22,454 bases of DNA from the IMG/VR virus record IMGVR_UViG_3300018080_000626, positions 1 to 22,454 of that record; one strand, 5' to 3'. This document shows, in pieces, positions 12,612 through 21,863 of this stretch. The position numbers and the translations under genes are program-made. This DNA comes from a virus. The notes under the pieces were generated by a model. It saw only the letters and a program-made list of their open reading frames with translations, was not told the DNA's origin and made no database searches. Position 1 is the stretch's first letter, and each line of letters begins with the position of its first letter.

Positions 12612-13571
<960 letters not shown>

Positions 13572-13578
13572 TTATCTA

Positions 13579-14532
13579 TTAATAAAATACAGCCGGATCT
13601 TTAACAGTGGTCTGGAACTTAATAACATTATTACCGTTCGTTCTCACCGCACCCGCTGTCAGAGTAAGTCTCAACCTTACAGTTGAAATCTTGGTCTCTT
13701 TCAGAGGTATGATCTCAAAGTTAATGCCGTCAGAAGCCATACCATACACAAGAGCATTGTTAGCCATAGCCAAACAATCTCTTACAGCGGAAGCTTCATT
13801 CAACATCTTACCGGTTGCAGACTGCGCACCAAAAGTAACATTCTGCATACCAAGCTGTCTACCAAACCCAGATTCATTAGGCTGACCCATCGCGTTCTGT
13901 GGGTAGACCTGCTGAAACTGCCAGGAAGTAAGCTGTGTAATTCCACCCATATCGTACTGTTCATCTTCCGAAATTACGAACTTGACATTGTTCATGCCAT
14001 TAGGTGAAACAACTTCAGTACCGGTAAATCTGTGATTGATTTTGCGAAGAAGGTCAACTGTAATACCACCAGTTGCGTCGATCGTTATACCTCCATCTTG
14101 AGCGAACGTAAGTTCGGTGTCGCCCTTTTCACCGTAGTACACGCTTGCTACTGACGCGTCAATACCAACCTTATCAAGAAAACGATATGAAGCATTCATC
14201 ATTTCCTCTGTGATAAGAGAAGACGGATTTGTAGAAGTAGTCTTACGGAACCAATGTTCGTCATAATCAACCTCTATAATCATTCTGTCAGTATCAAGTT
14301 TTCTACGGAAGTAGTTCGCGGCAACGCCCTGTGAATTGGCGTTGTAAGAATTGTCAATCCTGTAATCAACAGGAGCAACTCCGTCCAAGTACATCTGTTT
14401 ACCTTCTACTGTAACTTCAGGGTAGAAGCCAGTAAAAAGGCGAGTTTCTCTCTGCTGTGGTATCTTGAGAAGATTTCCTAAATAATCATCTTTCAAGACT
14501 GTTTCCACGCCTGCGTAATCATTTCTAGCCAT
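13579..14532 (-). CDS. Major capsid protein
   Basis: I place the start at ATG 14532 (MARNDYAGVETVLKDD), giving 317 residues, because GGAGG lies six bases upstream; an ATG two codons earlier abuts the GGAGG. The protein has no signal peptide, is acidic and mixed alpha/beta, and contains WFRKTTSTNPSS, VKFVISEDEQYDMGG and QLTSWQFQQVYPQNAMG segments of the sort seen in HK97-fold podovirus capsids of 310-350 residues. I assign it mainly from position: it directly follows the scaffold gene and has its own strong promoter with a roughly 110-base leader, as expected for the most abundant virion protein. A perfect hairpin follows its stop. There is no slippery sequence suggesting a T7 10A/10B-type frameshift product. 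Confidence 0.85.
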   Translation of the reverse strand: MARNDYAGVETVLKDDYLGNLLKIPQQRETRLFTGFYPEVTVEGKQMYLDGVAPVDYRIDNSYNANSQGVAANYFRRKLDTDRMIIEVDYDEHWFRKTTSTNPSSLITEEMMNASYRFLDKVGIDASVASVYYGEKGDTELTFAQDGGITIDATGGITVDLLRKINHRFTGTEVVSPNGMNNVKFVISEDEQYDMGGITQLTSWQFQQVYPQNAMGQPNESGFGRQLGMQNVTFGAQSATGKMLNEASAVRDCLAMANNALVYGMASDGINFEIIPLKETKISTVRLRLTLTAGAVRTNGNNVIKFQTTVKDPAVFY

Positions 14533-14646
14533 TGTCATCCTCCTTAATTAGGTTCATCAATAAGTGTTTTAAGTTTACTAACGATACCCGGTATTAAGTC
14601 GGACGACTAGGCCGATACCCGCTCTTTCACGGACGTTATATTATTC
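14533..14646 (-). promoter_or_regulatory. Structured 5' leader of the capsid mRNA
   Basis: About 110 untranslated bases separate the predicted transcription start from the capsid ATG, while most gaps in this window are under 30. On the transcribed strand the element CGGGTATC occurs twice. GGTAT can pair with ATACC across 14588-14621, enclosing a smaller AGTC/GACT stem. A competing small hairpin (ATAC-CGG-GTAT) uses the same ATACC. The end of the leader carries AATTAAGGAGG. The structure is weak and its role is inferred. Confidence 0.35.
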
Positions 14647-14652
14647 TCTTTA

Positions 14653-14681
14653 AATATACACTATGTTTTACTACTTGTCAA
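14653..14681 (-). promoter_or_regulatory. Sigma70-type promoter for the capsid gene
   Basis: On the minus strand TTGACA (14681-14676), a 17-base spacer and TATATT (14658-14653) form a near-consensus promoter. It begins six bases after the scaffold stop codon. An A-tract (AAAAAATT) lies directly upstream, like an UP element. The flanks and half of the spacer match the promoter at 21835-21863, including ATAGTGTATATT. Confidence 0.85.
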
Positions 14682-14686
14682 ATTTT

Positions 14687-15625
14687 TTACTTAAATAAAT
14701 CTATGCCCAACTCATCAGCCTTTGCACCAATCTTTGTCATTTGCGCATTTATGTTCGATAGTTTCATCCTCTTGATATGTTCCGGCATATTTTTATCTGT
14801 CTTAATTGCCACCTTCTGTCCGGACAATGCCTGAAAATCTGTCTTCAAATCTCCACTCATTCCCGGTTGCGCGCCAGGTTTACCTGGGATCCTATTTTCA
14901 CCAATATATGTATCATGGATCTTTTTACTAAATACAATTAAAGGCATTAACTCTTCGTTACTCATAGTCTCAATTTTATCAGCTAAATAAGCTTTCTCCC
15001 CAAGAGACTCACGCATAATAGACTTAAAAGCTGTCATAGCGGCTACTTTATCCTCACCTAAAACTTCATCAGCCAACTTTTGAAAATCTAAATTTCGTTG
15101 AGCCGACTGCTCGATCATAGGCTTATTCATCTCATACAATGCGGCCTCATATTTATTGACGATACGCTGACCGGCTTCTTTAGGTACGTTTTCCTCAAAA
15201 AAGATCTTTTTCATGGTGTGGTCAAGATCCACATTTCTTTCAACATCTTTCAGAGTTTCGATACTCTTAAACTCATAACCTTCCGGATTTTCTGGAATTC
15301 CCATTTTCTTTCGAAATTCGGCCACTATCTCTGGATCTGCATTTTCCCCGGGAAGCACAACCTTATCTTTTCCAATCAATTTCTGAACGCCACTCATTTT
15401 CTCCCAAAGATCTTCTACACTTTTAACTTCTTTAGCCCAGGGTTCTTTTTCGAATTTTTCCGGAACTTTAAAAAGATCAAGCCTTCTGTCTTTAGGACCC
15501 GTAGCTCCTGTCGCTCCCGTTGCTCTACCTGTAGCTCCGGTTGCTCTACCTGTTGTTCCTGTCGCCCCTGTTGGGCCTCCGCCTGTTGGGGCGCCGCCTG
15601 TTGGTCCACCTGCTCCTGTCGTCAT
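14687..15625 (-). CDS. Head scaffolding protein with collagen-like N-terminus
   Basis: The product has 312 residues, start behind AAAAGGAGAACAACATG. From residue about 48 it has the usual phage scaffold layout: FKVPEKFEKEPWAKEVKSVE, a DLWEKMSGVQKLIGK helix, PGENADPEIVAEFRKKMGIP followed by ENPEGYEF, then long charged helices and a basic C-terminal region (MPEHIKRMKLSNIN) of the type that binds coat protein. It lies between the portal region and the capsid gene, as expected for a scaffold that guides procapsid assembly. The odd part is residues 1-45, which are Gly/Thr/Pro/Ala-rich and include about eight consecutive Gly-X-Y triplets (GATGTTGRATGATGRATGAT). Collagen-like triplets are rare in an internal, transient assembly protein. 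Confidence 0.87.
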   Translation of the reverse strand: MTTGAGGPTGGAPTGGGPTGATGTTGRATGATGRATGATGATGPKDRRLDLFKVPEKFEKEPWAKEVKSVEDLWEKMSGVQKLIGKDKVVLPGENADPEIVAEFRKKMGIPENPEGYEFKSIETLKDVERNVDLDHTMKKIFFEENVPKEAGQRIVNKYEAALYEMNKPMIEQSAQRNLDFQKLADEVLGEDKVAAMTAFKSIMRESLGEKAYLADKIETMSNEELMPLIVFSKKIHDTYIGENRIPGKPGAQPGMSGDLKTDFQALSGQKVAIKTDKNMPEHIKRMKLSNINAQMTKIGAKADELGIDLFK

Positions 15626-15640
15626 GTTGTTCTCCTTTTG

Positions 15641-15991
15641 TTATTTTTCCCAGTCGTGTCTTTCTATTTTCTTTATCACGTCTGATGAAAGATTAAACCT
15701 AATTGTTTCGTACACACTTTTCGCGCCCAAAGTAACAAGGGTGTCTTCAATATCAATTTTTGTCTGCCTGTCTCGTCGAATAGATCCTTTATCCCCACCA
15801 CAAAGCAAGAAAAGATACTTCAAAAAAGTCTCTCCATCTTCTGTAGCGGCTAAACGTTCCATCGTCTGTCGCATTTCAGTTACTTGTTTCTCGTACGCTT
15901 CACGCGATTCTTGTTGTTTCTTCAGAATCGATTGTTTACTAAAAACCGATTGAACTACATCTTCTGGGGTACGCTCTTGTCCTTCTGTCAT
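15641..15991 (-). CDS. Small Bbp19-like phage protein
   Basis: The product has 116 residues, start behind AAAAAAGGAGAACCCAACATG. The core ATEDGETFLKYLFLLCGG, a spacer with basic residues, and an amphipathic helix (IEDTLVTLGAKSVYETIRFN) match the pattern of Bbp19-type proteins: a DG...L..LL..CG segment followed by a hydrophilic loop and a final helix. These are small proteins found between portal and scaffold or capsid genes of many podoviruses and have no settled function. Placement between portal and scaffold fits. A head-assembly role is likely from context. The family match is by eye and moderate. Confidence 0.8.
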   Translation of the reverse strand: MTEGQERTPEDVVQSVFSKQSILKKQQESREAYEKQVTEMRQTMERLAATEDGETFLKYLFLLCGGDKGSIRRDRQTKIDIEDTLVTLGAKSVYETIRFNLSSDVIKKIERHDWEK

Positions 15992-16011
15992 GTTGGGTTC
16001 TCCTTTTTTAA

Positions 16012-17802
16012 TTATCCTTGTTGGCTATTTGGCTGGCCAACTTCCGCCATATTACGAACAGCACCACTACGCGCGGCGTCTGCTTGAGCATTTGCCTGGT
16101 TAGCCGCGGCAATCTTCGCCTGGGCCTCTATCTTCGCCATTTCCATCTGGGCTTCTGCTCTTGATTTTCGAATCGCTTCTCTATCTTTCATCGTACGACA
16201 AACAATAGAATCAGTCGCTGTCAAATCTTTCAACTTCTCCGCGGTGCCATCTGGATCAATAACATCAATAAATTCCTGACTAATCGCACCGGCTTCACCC
16301 ATTACGGATATAAACTTCAACGTACTCTGTAATTCTTCATTATTCATTATCCTGGCCGCCGGAGAGATGAACTGTATATCATACCAATCCATTCCAGACA
16401 TCTGTGCTTTCAATACTTCTTCCGGAATTTGAATAGGTTCTATTCCATTAGCCCGTAATAGCTGAACGCGAGGGTCGTCTTCATTACCCGGATCCGGAAC
16501 ACCAAGAAGTCCCATCCCATAAAGAATATCCATCGATCGTGTAATAACCTCAATCAAAAAAGACATGATCTGCGTAAAAATAGGAGAGAGTGCGTCAGAA
16601 CGAATCTGATCTCTCATTATCGCCTCGCCCAAAGTCATACGTTGTTTAGCATTCAAATCATAAAGTTTATCGAGCAAGAAATATCCGGAGATCTCTTCTT
16701 TAAGTCCTTGAAGCCAATCATAAATAACCCGAAGATCTCCTACTTGAAAAAGTGGAAATATGGGTTGCTCTGTTGGAATAGTCCCGGCAACATTAAACAC
16801 GTTAAGTGCACCGGCTGATAGATCAACCGCCAAACCTGCGAGAGATCCGTTATCATACATACCAAGTGCCGGCTGTGCTGTAAGTTCTCCACCAATAGCC
16901 AAGATCTCATTTGCTATGTTTGCCTGGACTACTGTAGGTAAGGCGTCCATACCAGGACCACGACCATAAGATTCGTATTCCAACTTATCGTGAAAAAGAA
17001 CTTTAAGTGGAAGAGATTCATACCCACCACCTTCTAAATAGATATTTTGGTTGGGCATAAACAAATCCGCGGAATAAGGCATTCCCATCTTACCTTTCTT
17101 GCCCTTTATATCCGCTTCAGATCGTGGACGTATCGCTTCGGTAACAACAAACCTTTGAATATGATCGTTATTCTGAATCGCCTGCTGTACTGAAGGACCG
17201 GCCGCAAGACCATATCTATCCCATAACTCATCCGCCGATAAATTATAATCAATAAATATTTCCATGATCTCGCCAAACCCATCGTACCCAATATAAAAGG
17301 ATAGAATAGATTTATTAAAATATTTCAATGGACTATCGTACTGGCCCTGTTGAACTACCATACCAGACGTACCATAAATAACAGATTCCAAAATCGTCTT
17401 GAAAAGCGAAGTTGTTATCCGAGACTTTGGTCGTTCCATATAGGTTGCCGTATCTGTACTTATTCTATTGAAATATGTTTTACTGTCTTCAGTTTCAGAG
17501 ATCATTTTTGATGGAATAATTCTAAACGTTCCCTGTTCGTCTTTCCATACCATACCCATAAGCGCAGAAGCCATCAACTTCGCACTCTTCGCTCCGACAT
17601 TATCATTTATATTTCCATCATTTTCAAATTGGCCCTGGATAATCTGGGGCGTATACATCTGGTAATCAGACTTGATCTGATAGTAATACATAGACAGCGC
17701 GGAATATTGATTGTTGAAATTGACCTTCGCCGTCTGGTACCCCACACGTGCGCGTTTCAATTTCTCCAATAATGTGCCACCTACCATTGGTTTCTCGGCC
17801 AT
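16012..17802 (-). CDS. Portal protein / head-tail connector (T7 gp8-like)
   Basis: The product has 596 residues, start behind AGGTAGGTGACTGATG. It has the look of the podovirus head-to-tail connector family: an N-terminal helix with LLEKLKRARVGYQ, an aromatic-rich early region (SALSMYYYQIKSDYQ), NVGAKSAKLMASALMGMVW, then SLFKTILESVIYGTSGMVVQ. A central stretch IPTEQPIFPLFQVGDL is followed by the long crown helices. The last about 55 residues are an Ala/Gln/Lys-rich helix (EAQMEMAKIEAQAKIAAANQ). Length is close to T7 gp8 (536 residues). Twelve copies should form the DNA entry and exit ring, bind the terminase during packaging and the gp11-like adaptor afterwards. Confidence 0.92.
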   Translation of the reverse strand: MAEKPMVGGTLLEKLKRARVGYQTAKVNFNNQYSALSMYYYQIKSDYQMYTPQIIQGQFENDGNINDNVGAKSAKLMASALMGMVWKDEQGTFRIIPSKMISETEDSKTYFNRISTDTATYMERPKSRITTSLFKTILESVIYGTSGMVVQQGQYDSPLKYFNKSILSFYIGYDGFGEIMEIFIDYNLSADELWDRYGLAAGPSVQQAIQNNDHIQRFVVTEAIRPRSEADIKGKKGKMGMPYSADLFMPNQNIYLEGGGYESLPLKVLFHDKLEYESYGRGPGMDALPTVVQANIANEILAIGGELTAQPALGMYDNGSLAGLAVDLSAGALNVFNVAGTIPTEQPIFPLFQVGDLRVIYDWLQGLKEEISGYFLLDKLYDLNAKQRMTLGEAIMRDQIRSDALSPIFTQIMSFLIEVITRSMDILYGMGLLGVPDPGNEDDPRVQLLRANGIEPIQIPEEVLKAQMSGMDWYDIQFISPAARIMNNEELQSTLKFISVMGEAGAISQEFIDVIDPDGTAEKLKDLTATDSIVCRTMKDREAIRKSRAEAQMEMAKIEAQAKIAAANQANAQADAARSGAVRNMAEVGQPNSQQG

Positions 17803-17815
17803 CAGTCACCTACCT

Positions 17816-18115
17816 TTATTTTAACTTTGCTTGCGATGTACTGGATTTTGTTTCCAGACCCGTAGCTGAAGTGTTGATAACGCCTGCTCTATACGCTCTC
17901 TTTTTTGCTGTCGCTCTCGCCTCATCAGGAGTAAGAGCACCAGTACCGGTAGCCGCTTCGATTCTGCTATCCCCGCTACTCTGGTTAAACCCACCACCGG
18001 CCGCGTAAGCACCAACACCTACCGCCGTCGCCAAGGCTGTCGCACCAACACCTACACTAAATGCAGTCGCGGCACTGGCCCCTAACGCTGTTCCTATCGC
18101 TGTGAATAAAGCCAT
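17816..18115 (-). CDS. Small Ala/Gly-rich phage protein upstream of portal
   Basis: The product has 99 residues, start behind AAGGGGGAAATTATG. Residues 1-45 are hydrophobic and Ala/Gly/Thr/Val-rich (LFTAIGTALGASAATAFSVG), resembling a membrane-active or glycine-zipper segment. The C-terminal half is hydrophilic and contains TPDEARATAKKRAYRAGVIN followed by TSATGLE. An RA-G-TS-TGL end of this kind is seen in small podovirus proteins encoded next to portals. It could be a minor virion or internal protein related to ejection. I know no established function. A 13-base gap to the portal gene supports co-expression. Confidence 0.75.
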   Translation of the reverse strand: MALFTAIGTALGASAATAFSVGVGATALATAVGVGAYAAGGGFNQSSGDSRIEAATGTGALTPDEARATAKKRAYRAGVINTSATGLETKSSTSQAKLK

Positions 18116-18125
18116 AATTTCCCCC

Positions 18126-18521
18126 TTATTTGTATTTTCTTCTTACATTATCTGATACTTCTATAAATCTACAATTAGAAAACTCATAGTGACCATCATT
18201 ATTTATTCTATCAAGACTGGGGCGCTTCATCATAAAAGCACAGTCCCTAAACCAAAGCTCTTTAATCTCCTTAACCGATAAAAAATACTTAATCCCACGA
18301 CCACCATAATTTTTCCAATAGGAGTGGTTAGAATTATTACATCTTTGACGAGCGGCCGCATGAGACTTCATCCAAGGATTTCGATTTCGATAGGCGTACG
18401 CATTTGCGGTGGCCTTCTCGGGATTCGCTCGCGCCCATTTTTGGGAATACCCACTTTCTTTTTCTCTGTTTTTTCTACCCCATTCTCGTCTATACTTTCG
18501 GCGCTCTAAAGTCTCTTTCAT
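18126..18521 (-). CDS. HNH-like putative homing endonuclease
   Basis: The product has 131 residues, start behind AAAGGAGTTAAAATG, overlapping the acetyltransferase stop by four bases (ATGA). The N-terminus is Arg/Lys-rich with a Y-Q-K-W-A-N-P-E-K type segment (GYSQKWARANPEKATANAYA) common in small phage HNH proteins. Then come ARQRCNN near residues 58-63, NYGGRGI near 71-77, and SLDRINNDGHYEFSNCRFIE near 102-121. This DRI-NDG-Y-NCR pattern is the conserved end of a family of phage-encoded HNH-type nucleases. Classical paired zinc-binding cysteines are absent. Such genes are usually selfish insertions between conserved genes, and its place between terminase and portal agrees. Activity is unproven. 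Confidence 0.75.
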   Translation of the reverse strand: MKETLERRKYRREWGRKNREKESGYSQKWARANPEKATANAYAYRNRNPWMKSHAAARQRCNNSNHSYWKNYGGRGIKYFLSVKEIKELWFRDCAFMMKRPSLDRINNDGHYEFSNCRFIEVSDNVRRKYK

Positions 18522-18955
18522 TTTAACTCCTTTATGAATCGAGTCTCCATAGGTCTAAAACCTAATTTTTCGTATAATGTAAACAAAGATTCTTTTTTAG
18601 AATTCCACATACAACACATTGTCATTCTTTTGATGTTATGAACCTCACACCACTGTTGAACATGACGAAAAAGTTTTAAACCATAACGTCGATGTTTTTC
18701 ATCCATGTACCAAAGAACTTCCTCATATACCGGAAACCCACTACAAAAATCTTTCACTATATGCCCCGCCAAAAGACCAACAACTTTTCCTTCTTTTTCG
18801 ACAACAAAACTGGTGGCATACACCGCTTCAAAAACTTCTTTCATTCGATCAAGTTCCATATAGTTTCCATATTCAGACAAAGAAGAATCATTAAACTGTG
18901 CAACCAGTTCAATTCCATCTGGAAAATCTTTCTGTTCCATGGCTCGTATCTTCAT
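18518..18955 (-). CDS. GNAT-family N-acetyltransferase
   Basis: The product has 145 residues. Its ATG shares a base with the stop of the micro-ORF upstream (TAATG) and follows AAGGAAG. It has the GNAT layout: an N-terminal strand and helix (IRAMEQKDFPDGIELVAQF), central strands (SFVVEKEGKVVGLLAGHIV), EEVLWYMDEKHRRYGLKLF around residues 78-96, which should be motif A for acetyl-CoA pyrophosphate binding, and a C-terminal SLFTLYEKLGFRPMETRFIK. The RRYGLK loop departs from the usual (Q/R)xxGx(G/A) in its last position. Phages often carry such a gene near terminase or portal. The substrate is unknown; candidates are a virion or host protein. It overlaps the HNH gene by four bases. Confidence 0.85.
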   Translation of the reverse strand: MKIRAMEQKDFPDGIELVAQFNDSSLSEYGNYMELDRMKEVFEAVYATSFVVEKEGKVVGLLAGHIVKDFCSGFPVYEEVLWYMDEKHRRYGLKLFRHVQQWCEVHNIKRMTMCCMWNSKKESLFTLYEKLGFRPMETRFIKELK

Positions 18956-19005
18956 TACTTCCTTGGTTTCTTCGGCTTTGGTTTTGGTTTTCTTTTACAG
19001 CCCAT
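18955..19005 (-). CDS. Candidate 16-residue highly basic micro-peptide
   Basis: An ATG lies three bases after the large-terminase stop, with GAGGT at proper spacing (AGAGGTAGAATATG). It opens a 16-codon frame, MGCKRKPKPKPKKPRK, closed by TAA that overlaps the acetyltransferase ATG (TAATG). Nine of 16 residues are Lys or Arg, alternating with Pro, and the third residue is Cys. The frame fills the only gap between the two flanking genes, and start, stop and ribosome site are all well placed. It could be a real peptide that binds nucleic acid, or a translated leader that couples terminase and acetyltransferase synthesis. There is no homology evidence. Confidence 0.5.
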   Translation of the reverse strand: MGCKRKPKPKPKKPRK

Positions 19006-19008
19006 ATT

Positions 19009-20616
19009 CTACCTCTTCTTTATATAAAGTTCACTAGGTTTTTCATCCCGTACAAATCTTTCCGCGAGTCTCCGGGATCTAAAAGGACTCTTTACCCGAA
19101 CTACTTCCGGGCCGGCAACGTGGATCCTTGAAGCGTGTGTTCTTGCTTTTACCGGAAACGCAAACGTCAATGCCGTTGCGTCACTTATATCCGGGGAGAT
19201 CCCATCGTTATCTTTCTTTATCTGTTCTTTCGGAGGGAGAGTGAGTAGACCGCGGGACGTTGTTCTTTCAAATCCTGGAATCATCAACAGGTCTCTAGCA
19301 AATATGTCTTCGTCCGGGATACTACACCCTCCCTCTTCAAACCAATCTTTTAAAAATCCATACATCTGCGCTCTTTTGTTTCTATATAATTCAGGCATAA
19401 GTGGGGTACTGCCGAAGGCAATCGCCATAGTTTTTGAGCCATACCCCATCTCAACCAATCTATCCCGGCAACCGTAACCGTAGGCTACGTCTAAAAACGT
19501 CATGTCAAGTCCTAACTGATCTGTCTTCTGGGCGATTATCCCGGCTAGGCGCATGGGTTTCACTGGTTCGGTATAGACTTTATAATCAACTATGCGTCGT
19601 CCTTGTCTGACAACCCAGACAGTACGATCAGCACCTTCTCCACTTCCATCCACTCCCATAACCATTGGAGCAAGACCATCAAGGTACGCTTGAGTTTTCC
19701 GCGCCGTCTGAACATACTCCGGTTTAAGAAGCGTGTTCCCTGTTGACTGAAAGGCTTCCGCCAAACAGCATGGATACTCTTGCAAAAATTTCCATAGATC
19801 TCCATTATACTCATCCTCCAATTTTCGCCTACGCCAGAAGATCTGGTCAATGGAAAGGCCATAAAGTTCCATCAATTCCATCTCTTCTCGCGTAGGTTTA
19901 AATCGGGAAGGGGGCGTTTCTCTATACTCATCCTGGATATACCAGGGAATAAATAAGGTCTTATATCTTGTCAGTGCATTAGGGTCCGTCCCTTTCATAC
20001 ACAGATTATAGAACATGTTGTTCACACCGTTAGCTGTGGACTCCATGATAATTTCCGTTTTTAAGTTTGTCGCAACTCCCTGCATTAGCCCAGTAGATAA
20101 ATCGTCGGTATTGCCATAAAACGCGGCCTCTGATAAATGTAGGAGTTGCGGGTTCATGCCCCTTCCGACATCCTGTGCCCCCGCGGTCCCTAAACCATAT
20201 TCAGAATCGATCTTACCGAATTTTAATTCTTTTTTGTTAGATCGTTCAATGGAGGGACGTAGGGGGTCAGGTAGGTTGCTATACATTCTTTTGACCATAT
20301 CAAATAAGTAATCTGTAGACTTCGATATATGTGCAAGTATAAAAACACTCACACCTAAATTCATTGAGGCTTTATGTAAAAAACGAGCCGCCGTGTAAGT
20401 CGATACGCCTTGTTGTCTTCCTTTGACAACGCATACTCTCACAAGCTGACCCGCTTTTCTAATGTCTTCAATAAAATGATGTAACATCATCTGCGCCTTA
20501 TTGAAAACTAACGGCACAGATTTACCACCTTCTTTTGGTCTGATACGAATAAATCGCCTGGCATACTCGGGGAGAGCATTACGCAAGTGATCTATTTTTA
20601 AGTTCACATCAGACAT
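19009..20616 (-). CDS. terL: Terminase large subunit
   Basis: The product has 535 residues, start behind AAAAGGAGAAACTATAGATG, overlapping the previous gene by eight bases. The N-terminal ATPase has a Walker-A-like VVKGRQQGVST (residues about 63-73), an acidic LSEAAF segment (161-166) in the Walker-B position, and a MESTANG motif (191-197) in the coupling position. YPCCLAEAF near 281-289 is a family signature. The C-terminal RNase-H-like nuclease has candidate metal ligands at VDGSGEGADRT (D323), DVAYGYGCRDR (D376) and DISDATALTF (D476/D479), and NKRAQMYG near 413-420. It cuts concatemeric DNA and drives it into the procapsid through the portal encoded downstream. All key motifs are present. 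Confidence 0.95.
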   Translation of the reverse strand: MSDVNLKIDHLRNALPEYARRFIRIRPKEGGKSVPLVFNKAQMMLHHFIEDIRKAGQLVRVCVVKGRQQGVSTYTAARFLHKASMNLGVSVFILAHISKSTDYLFDMVKRMYSNLPDPLRPSIERSNKKELKFGKIDSEYGLGTAGAQDVGRGMNPQLLHLSEAAFYGNTDDLSTGLMQGVATNLKTEIIMESTANGVNNMFYNLCMKGTDPNALTRYKTLFIPWYIQDEYRETPPSRFKPTREEMELMELYGLSIDQIFWRRRKLEDEYNGDLWKFLQEYPCCLAEAFQSTGNTLLKPEYVQTARKTQAYLDGLAPMVMGVDGSGEGADRTVWVVRQGRRIVDYKVYTEPVKPMRLAGIIAQKTDQLGLDMTFLDVAYGYGCRDRLVEMGYGSKTMAIAFGSTPLMPELYRNKRAQMYGFLKDWFEEGGCSIPDEDIFARDLLMIPGFERTTSRGLLTLPPKEQIKKDNDGISPDISDATALTFAFPVKARTHASRIHVAGPEVVRVKSPFRSRRLAERFVRDEKPSELYIKKR

Positions 20617-21028
20617 CTATAGTTTCTCCTTTTGCCTGCACCCCATTTAAAATATCGTCTATCGTGAGGTTCAGGTTCGTACTTTCAGAAACCTGTTTCG
20701 CTTTACCCGCGATACGATCGAAAAGTTCCTGTGTCGCTTTGAGATCTCCCGCCGCCGCAAACGCCGCGAGTTTAATCGCCGCGATCTCTAAATGACTCAT
20801 ACTCCCAAAATCAAGTGTCTCCAACATCTCGGGAGTGAGTAACGCCGCCTGCTGTATCGCGCGATTAAAAACATCTTTTATTTTCCCCAGATCCGCAACC
20901 TTTACCGGCACCCCAGATTCCATTTTGTATTTACACACGTTCCCAGATTCATCAATCTCGTTGTAATATACATCGCGTTCGACAATTTCTTTCGTCGGTT
21001 CAGGTTGCGGGCTGAAAGGATCAGTCAT
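20609..21028 (-). CDS. Probable terminase small subunit
   Basis: The product has 139 residues. The ATG lies three bases after the preceding stop with a weak GGGGGTG site, so translation is probably coupled. Residues about 40-130 are helical, with AIQQAALLTPEMLETLD, AAIKLAAFAAAGDLKATQELFDRIAGKAKQ and a C-terminal TIDDIL. The LFDRIAGKAKQ pattern occurs in small terminase or related DNA-binding proteins of several phages. Its eight-base overlap with the large terminase and its size support the small-subunit role: recognising viral DNA and feeding it to the large subunit. No clear helix-turn-helix is visible at the N-terminus, which instead holds a charged, Pro-containing segment. Identity therefore rests mostly on position. 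Confidence 0.72.
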   Translation of the reverse strand: MTDPFSPQPEPTKEIVERDVYYNEIDESGNVCKYKMESGVPVKVADLGKIKDVFNRAIQQAALLTPEMLETLDFGSMSHLEIAAIKLAAFAAAGDLKATQELFDRIAGKAKQVSESTNLNLTIDDILNGVQAKGETIDV

Positions 21029-21031
21029 ATT

Positions 21032-21787
21032 CTACACCCCCGCAAATGGATCCGGTTGCGCTTCTGCCGCTACCGCCGGTCCCGTGGGTCCGGTAGGTTT
21101 ACCGGTACTCAACAGTTCCTTCTCAACTGCGGAAGGTTCAACCTCTTCAGTAGGCGCCACTTTCTTCGGTACGTCAGTTACCGGAATCTGTTTTTCAAGT
21201 TCCTCAAATTCACTCGCCTCCGCTACCGCCGCCTCTTTATCACCTCTCATATTATCCAACTCCGGATAACTTCTCTGTTTACCTTCACGATACTCCGCCA
21301 GATGTCGTTTGTATCCACCCTCGTCCGCCTGACGAAGTGCGACCATCTCCCTCGCCTTCTCAATCGAATAGAACTCATGTACGTCAACACCCAACTCCCA
21401 TTTGCGACAATACTCCGCAAGCTGTTCGATCGTCATAACCCTCATCGGTATATCCGTTATGTCCGTCGGGTTCGTCCTGTTAATGAGTTTCAAAATCTTG
21501 ATTTCGTAAATGCGTTGCCATGCAACTTCGATTGGCCCGTACTTCTTCGTGAGAAATTTTGGTACCGTGTAATTGCGTAATACATACCACGGCATTGTCG
21601 CTGAAGCTGAGTCAAGTTTGAAGATAACTTCTTCCTTGTACTTCGCCTCTTTCGATTGGTCATTCATCTTTGTGAAAGTAATTAGCACTCTCACCAAAAA
21701 TGGATAATTTTGTAAATCCTTCTTCGCGTCCGCCGCGGGTGTCGGACTTACACCACTTGCCACTGTCTTCTCCCTGTTCGTTGTCAT
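21032..21787 (-). CDS. Phage protein of unknown function with collagen-like C-terminal tract
   Basis: The product has 251 residues, start behind AAAAAGGAGGACACATG and about 40 bases downstream of a strong promoter, so it heads the packaging operon. Residues about 25-175 are a mixed alpha/beta domain (YPFLVRVLITFTKMND, AWQRIYEIKILKLINRTNP, PMRVMTIEQLAEYCRKW) that I do not recognise. Residues about 180-251 are acidic and Pro/Glu-rich, look disordered, and contain a short GKPTGPTGPA tract like the collagen-like triplets elsewhere in this phage. No membrane segment or catalytic motif is visible. It could be a packaging accessory or a minor virion protein; the neighbours do not decide between these. 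Confidence 0.8.
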   Translation of the reverse strand: MTTNREKTVASGVSPTPAADAKKDLQNYPFLVRVLITFTKMNDQSKEAKYKEEVIFKLDSASATMPWYVLRNYTVPKFLTKKYGPIEVAWQRIYEIKILKLINRTNPTDITDIPMRVMTIEQLAEYCRKWELGVDVHEFYSIEKAREMVALRQADEGGYKRHLAEYREGKQRSYPELDNMRGDKEAAVAEASEFEELEKQIPVTDVPKKVAPTEEVEPSAVEKELLSTGKPTGPTGPAVAAEAQPDPFAGV

Positions 21788-21834
21788 GTGTCCTCCTTTT
21801 TGAGATTAAATGTCTGATATAAATAGTTAATTTG

Positions 21835-21863
21835 AATATACACTATATATCACGTATTGTCAA
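21835..21863 (-). promoter_or_regulatory. Sigma70-type promoter for the packaging operon
   Basis: On the minus strand TTGACA (21863-21858), a 17-base spacer and TATATT (21840-21835) lie about 50 bases before the ATG at 21787. A-tracts upstream (AAAAAATTT, then AAAAATTTGACA) resemble an UP element. It shares AAAAATTTGACAA and ATAGTGTATATT with the capsid promoter at 14653-14681. Confidence 0.85.

Follow-up and report, generated by a model that had tools for sequence, protein, structure and literature searches.

The window, by which we mean the whole stretch of DNA analysed here (IMG/VR record IMGVR_UViG_3300018080_000626, 22,454 bases), carries its late genes all on the minus strand, and relatives served for the wider comparison. 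The genes follow the order small open reading frames (ORFs), terminase, acetyltransferase and HNH-like ORFs, portal, a scaffold-like ORF, capsid, a collagen-like fibre protein, two tail proteins and an internal virion protein, which is a T7-like head and tail block. The closest annotated phages, judged by the portal only, are Manatee Spring podovirus and Pelagibacter phages, with 22–30% identity. Relatives were collected as 29 loci by capsid searches and 22 loci by terminase searches, and a search of bacterial genomes for capsid relatives gave none. The HNH endonuclease-like ORF (18521–18126, minus), which lies between terminase and portal with the acetyltransferase adjoining, is possibly a free-standing homing gene, and the tail region encodes three collagen-like Gly-X-Y proteins (13556–12612, 2710–1757 and 475–2, all minus). 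The principal features around the capsid and terminase genes are:

21835–21863, minus strand: putative packaging promoter, -35 TTGACA at 21863–21858, -10 TATATT at 21840–21835
19009–20616, minus strand: terminase large subunit gene (PHROG 2), 3' of the packaging promoter
14687–15625, minus strand: scaffold-like gene (PHROG 3742, unknown function), between portal and capsid, just 5' of the capsid promoter
14653–14681, minus strand: putative capsid promoter, -35 TTGACA at 14681–14676, -10 TATATT at 14658–14653
13579–14532, minus strand: major capsid gene (PHROG 3437 major head protein; Pfam Phage_capsid_2)
13543–13570, minus strand: intrinsic terminator after the capsid stop codon, a 12-bp stem followed by TTATTTT

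The capsid start was taken at 14532 as in the relatives; an in-frame ATG at 14538 overlaps the spacer of the Shine-Dalgarno sequence (SD).

The two TTGACA-17-TATATT sites had been pointed out in an earlier note on this DNA, and both were found on the minus strand as described, each with 11 of 12 consensus matches. Their TTGACA and TATAAT-like hexamers, separated by 17 bases within the 16–18 that characterize the sigma70 type, suggest that both act as promoters of this type. They are the top two among 42 promoter-like sites scanned in 20 kb, of which the others score 10 or less, and this total equals the number expected from shuffles. The shared blocks outside the hexamers that the note described are also present at both sites, with a gap of 10 bases instead of the 11 it gave: within the window, the extended motif AAAAATTTGACAA-N10-ATAGTGTATATT occurs exactly twice, at the two known sites, with zero occurrences expected (100 shuffles, up to three mismatches). 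The idea that one promoter is a duplicate of the other is not supported, as the flanks beyond the shared 35 bp are unrelated, which rules out a long segmental duplication, and the shared flank follows a consensus found throughout the family. Two other elements lie 5' of the packaging promoter. The ACTTCCGTCAT motif (21923–21901, minus) is present once in the window, inside a hairpin, and twice in the relative G001 (L373); it may be a terminator remnant, a replication iteron or a packaging signal. A conserved GCGAACCCTCCACC...GCGGGCGAAT block, found in two genomes at ~22100–22060 (minus) of the window and at the start of G002 (L378), may represent a packaging site in the vicinity of terminase.

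Among the relatives, a capsid promoter that matches the consensus at 10 or more of 12 positions lies in the same place, directly upstream of the capsid gene, in 22 of 24, and its flank conserves T-17, A-16 and G-13 (~1.2 bits each) together with an A-rich tract 5' of the -35. Of the 15 loci examined, which include the window and several redundant entries, 12 have a packaging-type site 1.2–1.6 kb 5' of terminase. Strict TTGACA-17-TATANT sites number three in the 45.4-kb relative G001 and two in the 45.3-kb relative G003, corresponding to the capsid and packaging promoters plus, in G001, a site on the other strand that serves a gene for a small secreted protein; G002 has the same three kinds of site. 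The product of the gene behind this third strong promoter (G001:24653 plus, L373; G002:42005 minus, L379) contains YSDEEIVNAIYKAEGG and is possibly lysis-related. Similarity outside the hexamers, for which the earlier note had looked to related phages, does recur there at capsid and packaging promoters. Within one genome, the packaging and capsid flanks share 13 (window), 11 (G002), 9 (G001) and 8 (G003) of 13 positions, whereas flanks taken from different genomes share 9.1 on average, and the two sites of the window are thus both good examples of the family consensus. Judged from these comparisons of sequence, the extra bases common to both (the A-tract, TA at -17/-16 and G at -13) are the promoter consensus of a podovirus family. 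The flank consensus being family-wide, with no matched pair, the dedicated regulator site proposed earlier is not supported. A phage-encoded activator or sigma-like factor that binds the extended sequence and fires the packaging and capsid promoters together could account for the non-hexamer bases conserved among capsid promoters and recurring at packaging promoters, as well as for the third site of G002, which on the opposite strand ends in the same GTAGTGTATATT. We consider such a factor quite unlikely, because the hexamers and their 17-base spacer are the best-conserved part, so that host sigma70 suffices, while the flank is free to vary in some genomes (8–9 of 13 positions shared) and the third promoter of G001 belongs to a gene on the other strand that is not part of the late block.

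The early strand of G001 bears on which polymerase reads these promoters. Its longest ORF does not exceed 701 aa, leaving none big enough for a T7-type enzyme, and RNA polymerase is not among the early ORFs tested by PHROGs, which include primase-helicase, helicase, exonuclease, SSB and DNA polymerase. The PF00940 RNA polymerase profile gave zero matches, but the control genomes likewise gave zero. The absence of a large early ORF in G001 fits transcription by the host enzyme. The same early block also encodes an RtcB-type RNA ligase (L373:5567–6727) and a peptide deformylase (L373:18141–18914).

According to the earlier note, one promoter drives the packaging genes and the other boosts the capsid gene from inside the same transcription unit. 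The positions agree with this division of labour, since one site precedes the terminase block and the other immediately precedes capsid, and both are kept in relatives; the notion of a booster within the packaging unit is incomplete, because the capsid gene has its own terminator. In the window, and likewise in 13 of the 21 relatives inspected, the capsid stop codon is succeeded by a strong terminator, the stems being of similar strength and different sequence, and this makes the capsid its own unit; after the capsid gene of the second lineage described below, a strong terminator was not found. Promoter, 114-nt leader, capsid gene and terminator are, as far as can be read from the DNA, a self-contained unit. 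In T7, phi10 lies immediately 5' of gene 10A and Tphi immediately 3', within a longer late transcript (PMC6068830). The major capsid gene is bracketed by its own promoter and terminator in both cases, and the order of head genes is the same. In contrast, the promoter of the window is of host sigma70 type, whereas that of T7 is for the phage RNA polymerase, and the window adds a conserved, switch-like leader.

This leader, a conserved RNA between the capsid promoter and the capsid gene, was not mentioned in the earlier note. Its elements are:

14533–14646, minus strand: 5' leader of the capsid mRNA, a conserved structured RNA of 114 nt counted from the presumed transcript start
14630–14638, minus strand: 5' strand of outer stem P1 (UAACG-U-CCG), partner at 14590–14579, with covariation
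14611–14624, minus strand: 5' strand of inner stem P2 (GAG-CGG-GUAU-CGGC), partner at 14607–14596, with covariation
14596–14607, minus strand: 3' strand of P2 (GUCG-U-CCG-A-CUU), overlapping the anti-SD strand UCC-GA-CUUAA at 14603–14594
14579–14590, minus strand: 3' strand of P1 (CGG-GUAU-CGUUA), overlapping the alternative stem P3
14576–14582, minus strand: 5' strand of alternative stem P3 (GUUAGUA), partner at ~14563–14556
14539–14545, minus strand: capsid SD, AAGGAGG, partner of the anti-SD strand in the alternative fold

The leader of the window contains CGTCCG...CGGGTATCG twice. Conserved counterparts are present in 27 related contigs, invariably before the capsid gene, and a covariance model detects exactly one good leader in each contig, in every case 5' of capsid. 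P1 and P2 are nested and both carry the internal loop CG-U-CCG / CGG-GKAY-CG. In a structure-blind alignment of 23 sequences, this nested model has 92% of its cells paired, against ~40% for slid registers, and 11 of its 20 pairs are changed on both sides, giving 29 such cells versus 6.7 in shuffles. Compensatory changes include CCG/CGG to CCA/UGG in P1 (L012) and CGG/CCG to either AGG/CCU (L008, L012, L018) or CAG/CUG (L023, L025, L030) in P2. A topology of tandem local hairpins was rejected for the lineage of the window, as it shows no covarying pair or double change. We do not use the stability of the fold as proof, since other stretches of the window, several of them coding, are equally strong by z-score. 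The leader thus possesses the conserved structured domain with covariation that is expected of a riboswitch. It reaches the gathering threshold of no family in Rfam 15, and the leader DNA of each lineage has no match among 50,697 phage records; the main text presenting a 2010 list of 104 candidate RNAs (PMC2864571) mentions no capsid-linked RNA, the 2017 list of 224 RNAs by Weinberg et al. being outside the comparison. The leader is well supported as a conserved RNA family and, set against Rfam and these phage records, appears to be previously undescribed.

For the full-length leader, the predicted best fold breaks P1 and P2: the UCC-GA-CUUAA strand of P2 pairs with the SD region UUAAG-GA-GGA, and GUUAAUA of P1 with UAUUGAC, a preference for the hidden state that may be overstated because nearest-neighbour energies omit the non-canonical contacts of the internal loop. 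The mean pairing probability of P1/P2 depends on where the transcript ends, being 0.81/0.80 after P1, 0.40/0.70 after P3 and 0.00/0.04 at full length. In the alternative fold, 6 of 14 pairs have double changes versus 1.5 in shuffles. The anti-SD strand pairs with its own SD at -8.5 kcal/mol and with the SDs of others at -7.7, a difference reached in 8 of 20,000 permutations with a flat control region; small counts of this kind overstate significance, since the permutations ignore the ancestry shared by the metagenomic sequences from which all our results were computed. Where the P2 partner of CUU has been lost (L014, L016, L017), the alignment still has CUUA opposite the UAAG of the SD. On average, the SD is not clearly less accessible than with shuffled leaders in most homologues, and the deepest branches (L023, L027, L029) have a weaker or different predicted alternative fold. 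In silico, the leader contains the mutually exclusive, SD-hiding strand that riboswitches possess, and two conserved folds that exclude each other, with opposite effects on the SD, provide what a translational switch needs. We read the leader as such a switch; the switching, its direction and any trigger are inferred.

A second lineage carries the same loop. A loosened scan with the leader pattern returned mostly GC-rich chance matches, yet yielded L284, from which capsid searches led to further contigs. Its capsid and portal are 31% and 28% identical to those of the window. The same internal loop occupies the same position before capsid, in one or two local hairpins of the form NCG-U-CCG / CGG-GKAY-CGN', with compensatory changes that include ACG/CGU to ACC/GGU, UCG/CGA and GCG/CGC (10 double-change cells versus 3.3 in shuffles). 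Each module also pairs better with its own SD (1 of 20,000 permutations, n = 9, leaning on L330). A scan for this hairpin alone found only capsid leaders or GC-rich chance matches. In the leaders of L351, L355, L357, L330 and L331, the first hairpin is enclosed by an outer stem AGYGACA...UARCU and the second by CUCAA...GAG, which suggests that the RNA is a larger composite.

The reading we favour, with a probability of about 0.6, is that of a podovirus with few strong host-type promoters, in which a separate capsid unit is headed by a cis-acting leader of two folds, leaving the SD either free or hidden. Very few, strong sigma70-type promoters would be used, one starting the packaging block and the other the capsid unit. 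The leader, acting in cis, would adopt mutually exclusive folds: in one, the nested P1 and P2 would be formed and the SD free; in the other, the anti-SD strand of P2 would pair with the capsid SD and hide the ribosome-binding site. P1/P2 are predicted to form first during RNA synthesis, and whether the open state lasts would depend on a factor, most likely a protein, that recognises the doubled internal loop, or just on the speed of folding and translation. Phage-borne regulatory RNAs of comparable kind are the glutamine riboswitch in methylophage Melnitz (PMC9004378) and the manA and wcaG RNAs in cyanophages (PMC2864571). Like these and translational riboswitches, the leader appears as a cis-regulatory RNA whose conserved domain overlaps the SD-hiding strand; unlike them, it would control capsid instead of a metabolic gene or tmRNA, and it is not in Rfam. 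The wider proposal of a new riboswitch-like family, in which two copies of one internal-loop module, nested or tandem, sense a protein or metabolite and switch on translation of the major capsid in at least two uncultivated podovirus lineages, is tentative, and we place it clearly below even odds.

How might the open and hidden states be selected? In the T4 late mRNAs e, soc, 49 and I-TevI, an mRNA helix occludes the SD (PMC3014915), as predicted for our leader. For gene e and I-TevI, the occluding fold is present in longer early transcripts and a late promoter avoids it; unlike T4, the window has its anti-SD strand 3' of the capsid promoter and hence on every capsid transcript, and a T4-style escape by an internal promoter was therefore rejected. 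An autogenous operator, with capsid translation controlled through binding of the capsid or scaffold protein to the doubled loop, is somewhat unlikely. It would explain why both lineages have the element linked to the capsid gene, a loop present twice would suit a dimer or two protomers, and translational autoregulation by phage proteins is established, for example by T4 gp32 and gp43 (PMC3014915); however, the SD is free in the loop-bearing fold, so that simple binding would activate and not repress, and the capsids of the two lineages are only 31% identical. The leader of the MS2 maturation gene has its start site exposed by a transient fold and hidden by a later one (PMC6071253), and the window is predicted to behave alike, with an early fold that leaves the SD open and a later fold that hides it. 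A ligand-free timer of this sort, new mRNA being translated while P1/P2 lasts and shut off after refolding, would draw on the MS2 precedent (PMC6071253) and on the stepwise prediction that places P1/P2 first and the SD-hiding fold last in nearly all homologues. We still deem it unlikely, as it leaves unexplained the invariance of the U/GKAY internal loop across two lineages. MS2 itself is an RNA phage without a doubled conserved internal loop.

Improbable to a similar degree is a static stabiliser or processing element, such as a 5' hairpin against RNases, with the SD complementarity incidental. Stability would benefit a highly expressed capsid mRNA, any CC-rich strand will look like an anti-SD, and SD occlusion is not in excess over shuffles, whereas the comparison of own with others' SDs and the CUUA retained despite its lost P2 partner argue the other way. 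The put RNA of phage HK022 is a cis-acting RNA that suppresses downstream terminators, and our leader may resemble it. Hairpins with conserved loops that begin just 3' of the promoter, and a terminator after capsid, would suit a leader that modifies RNA polymerase to read through this terminator into the tail genes; yet the second lineage has the element without a strong post-capsid terminator and the SD complementarity would be left unexplained, making such antitermination very improbable.

Capsid protein is among the most abundantly made products of tailed phages, and to our knowledge its control by conserved structured RNA has been little described. Should the leader prove to be a switch, as we favour, it would offer a testable answer to the question of how the timing and amount of capsid are set in a phage dependent on host-type promoters. 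With its doubled loop nested in one lineage and in tandem in the other, the element is also a natural experiment in RNA architecture.
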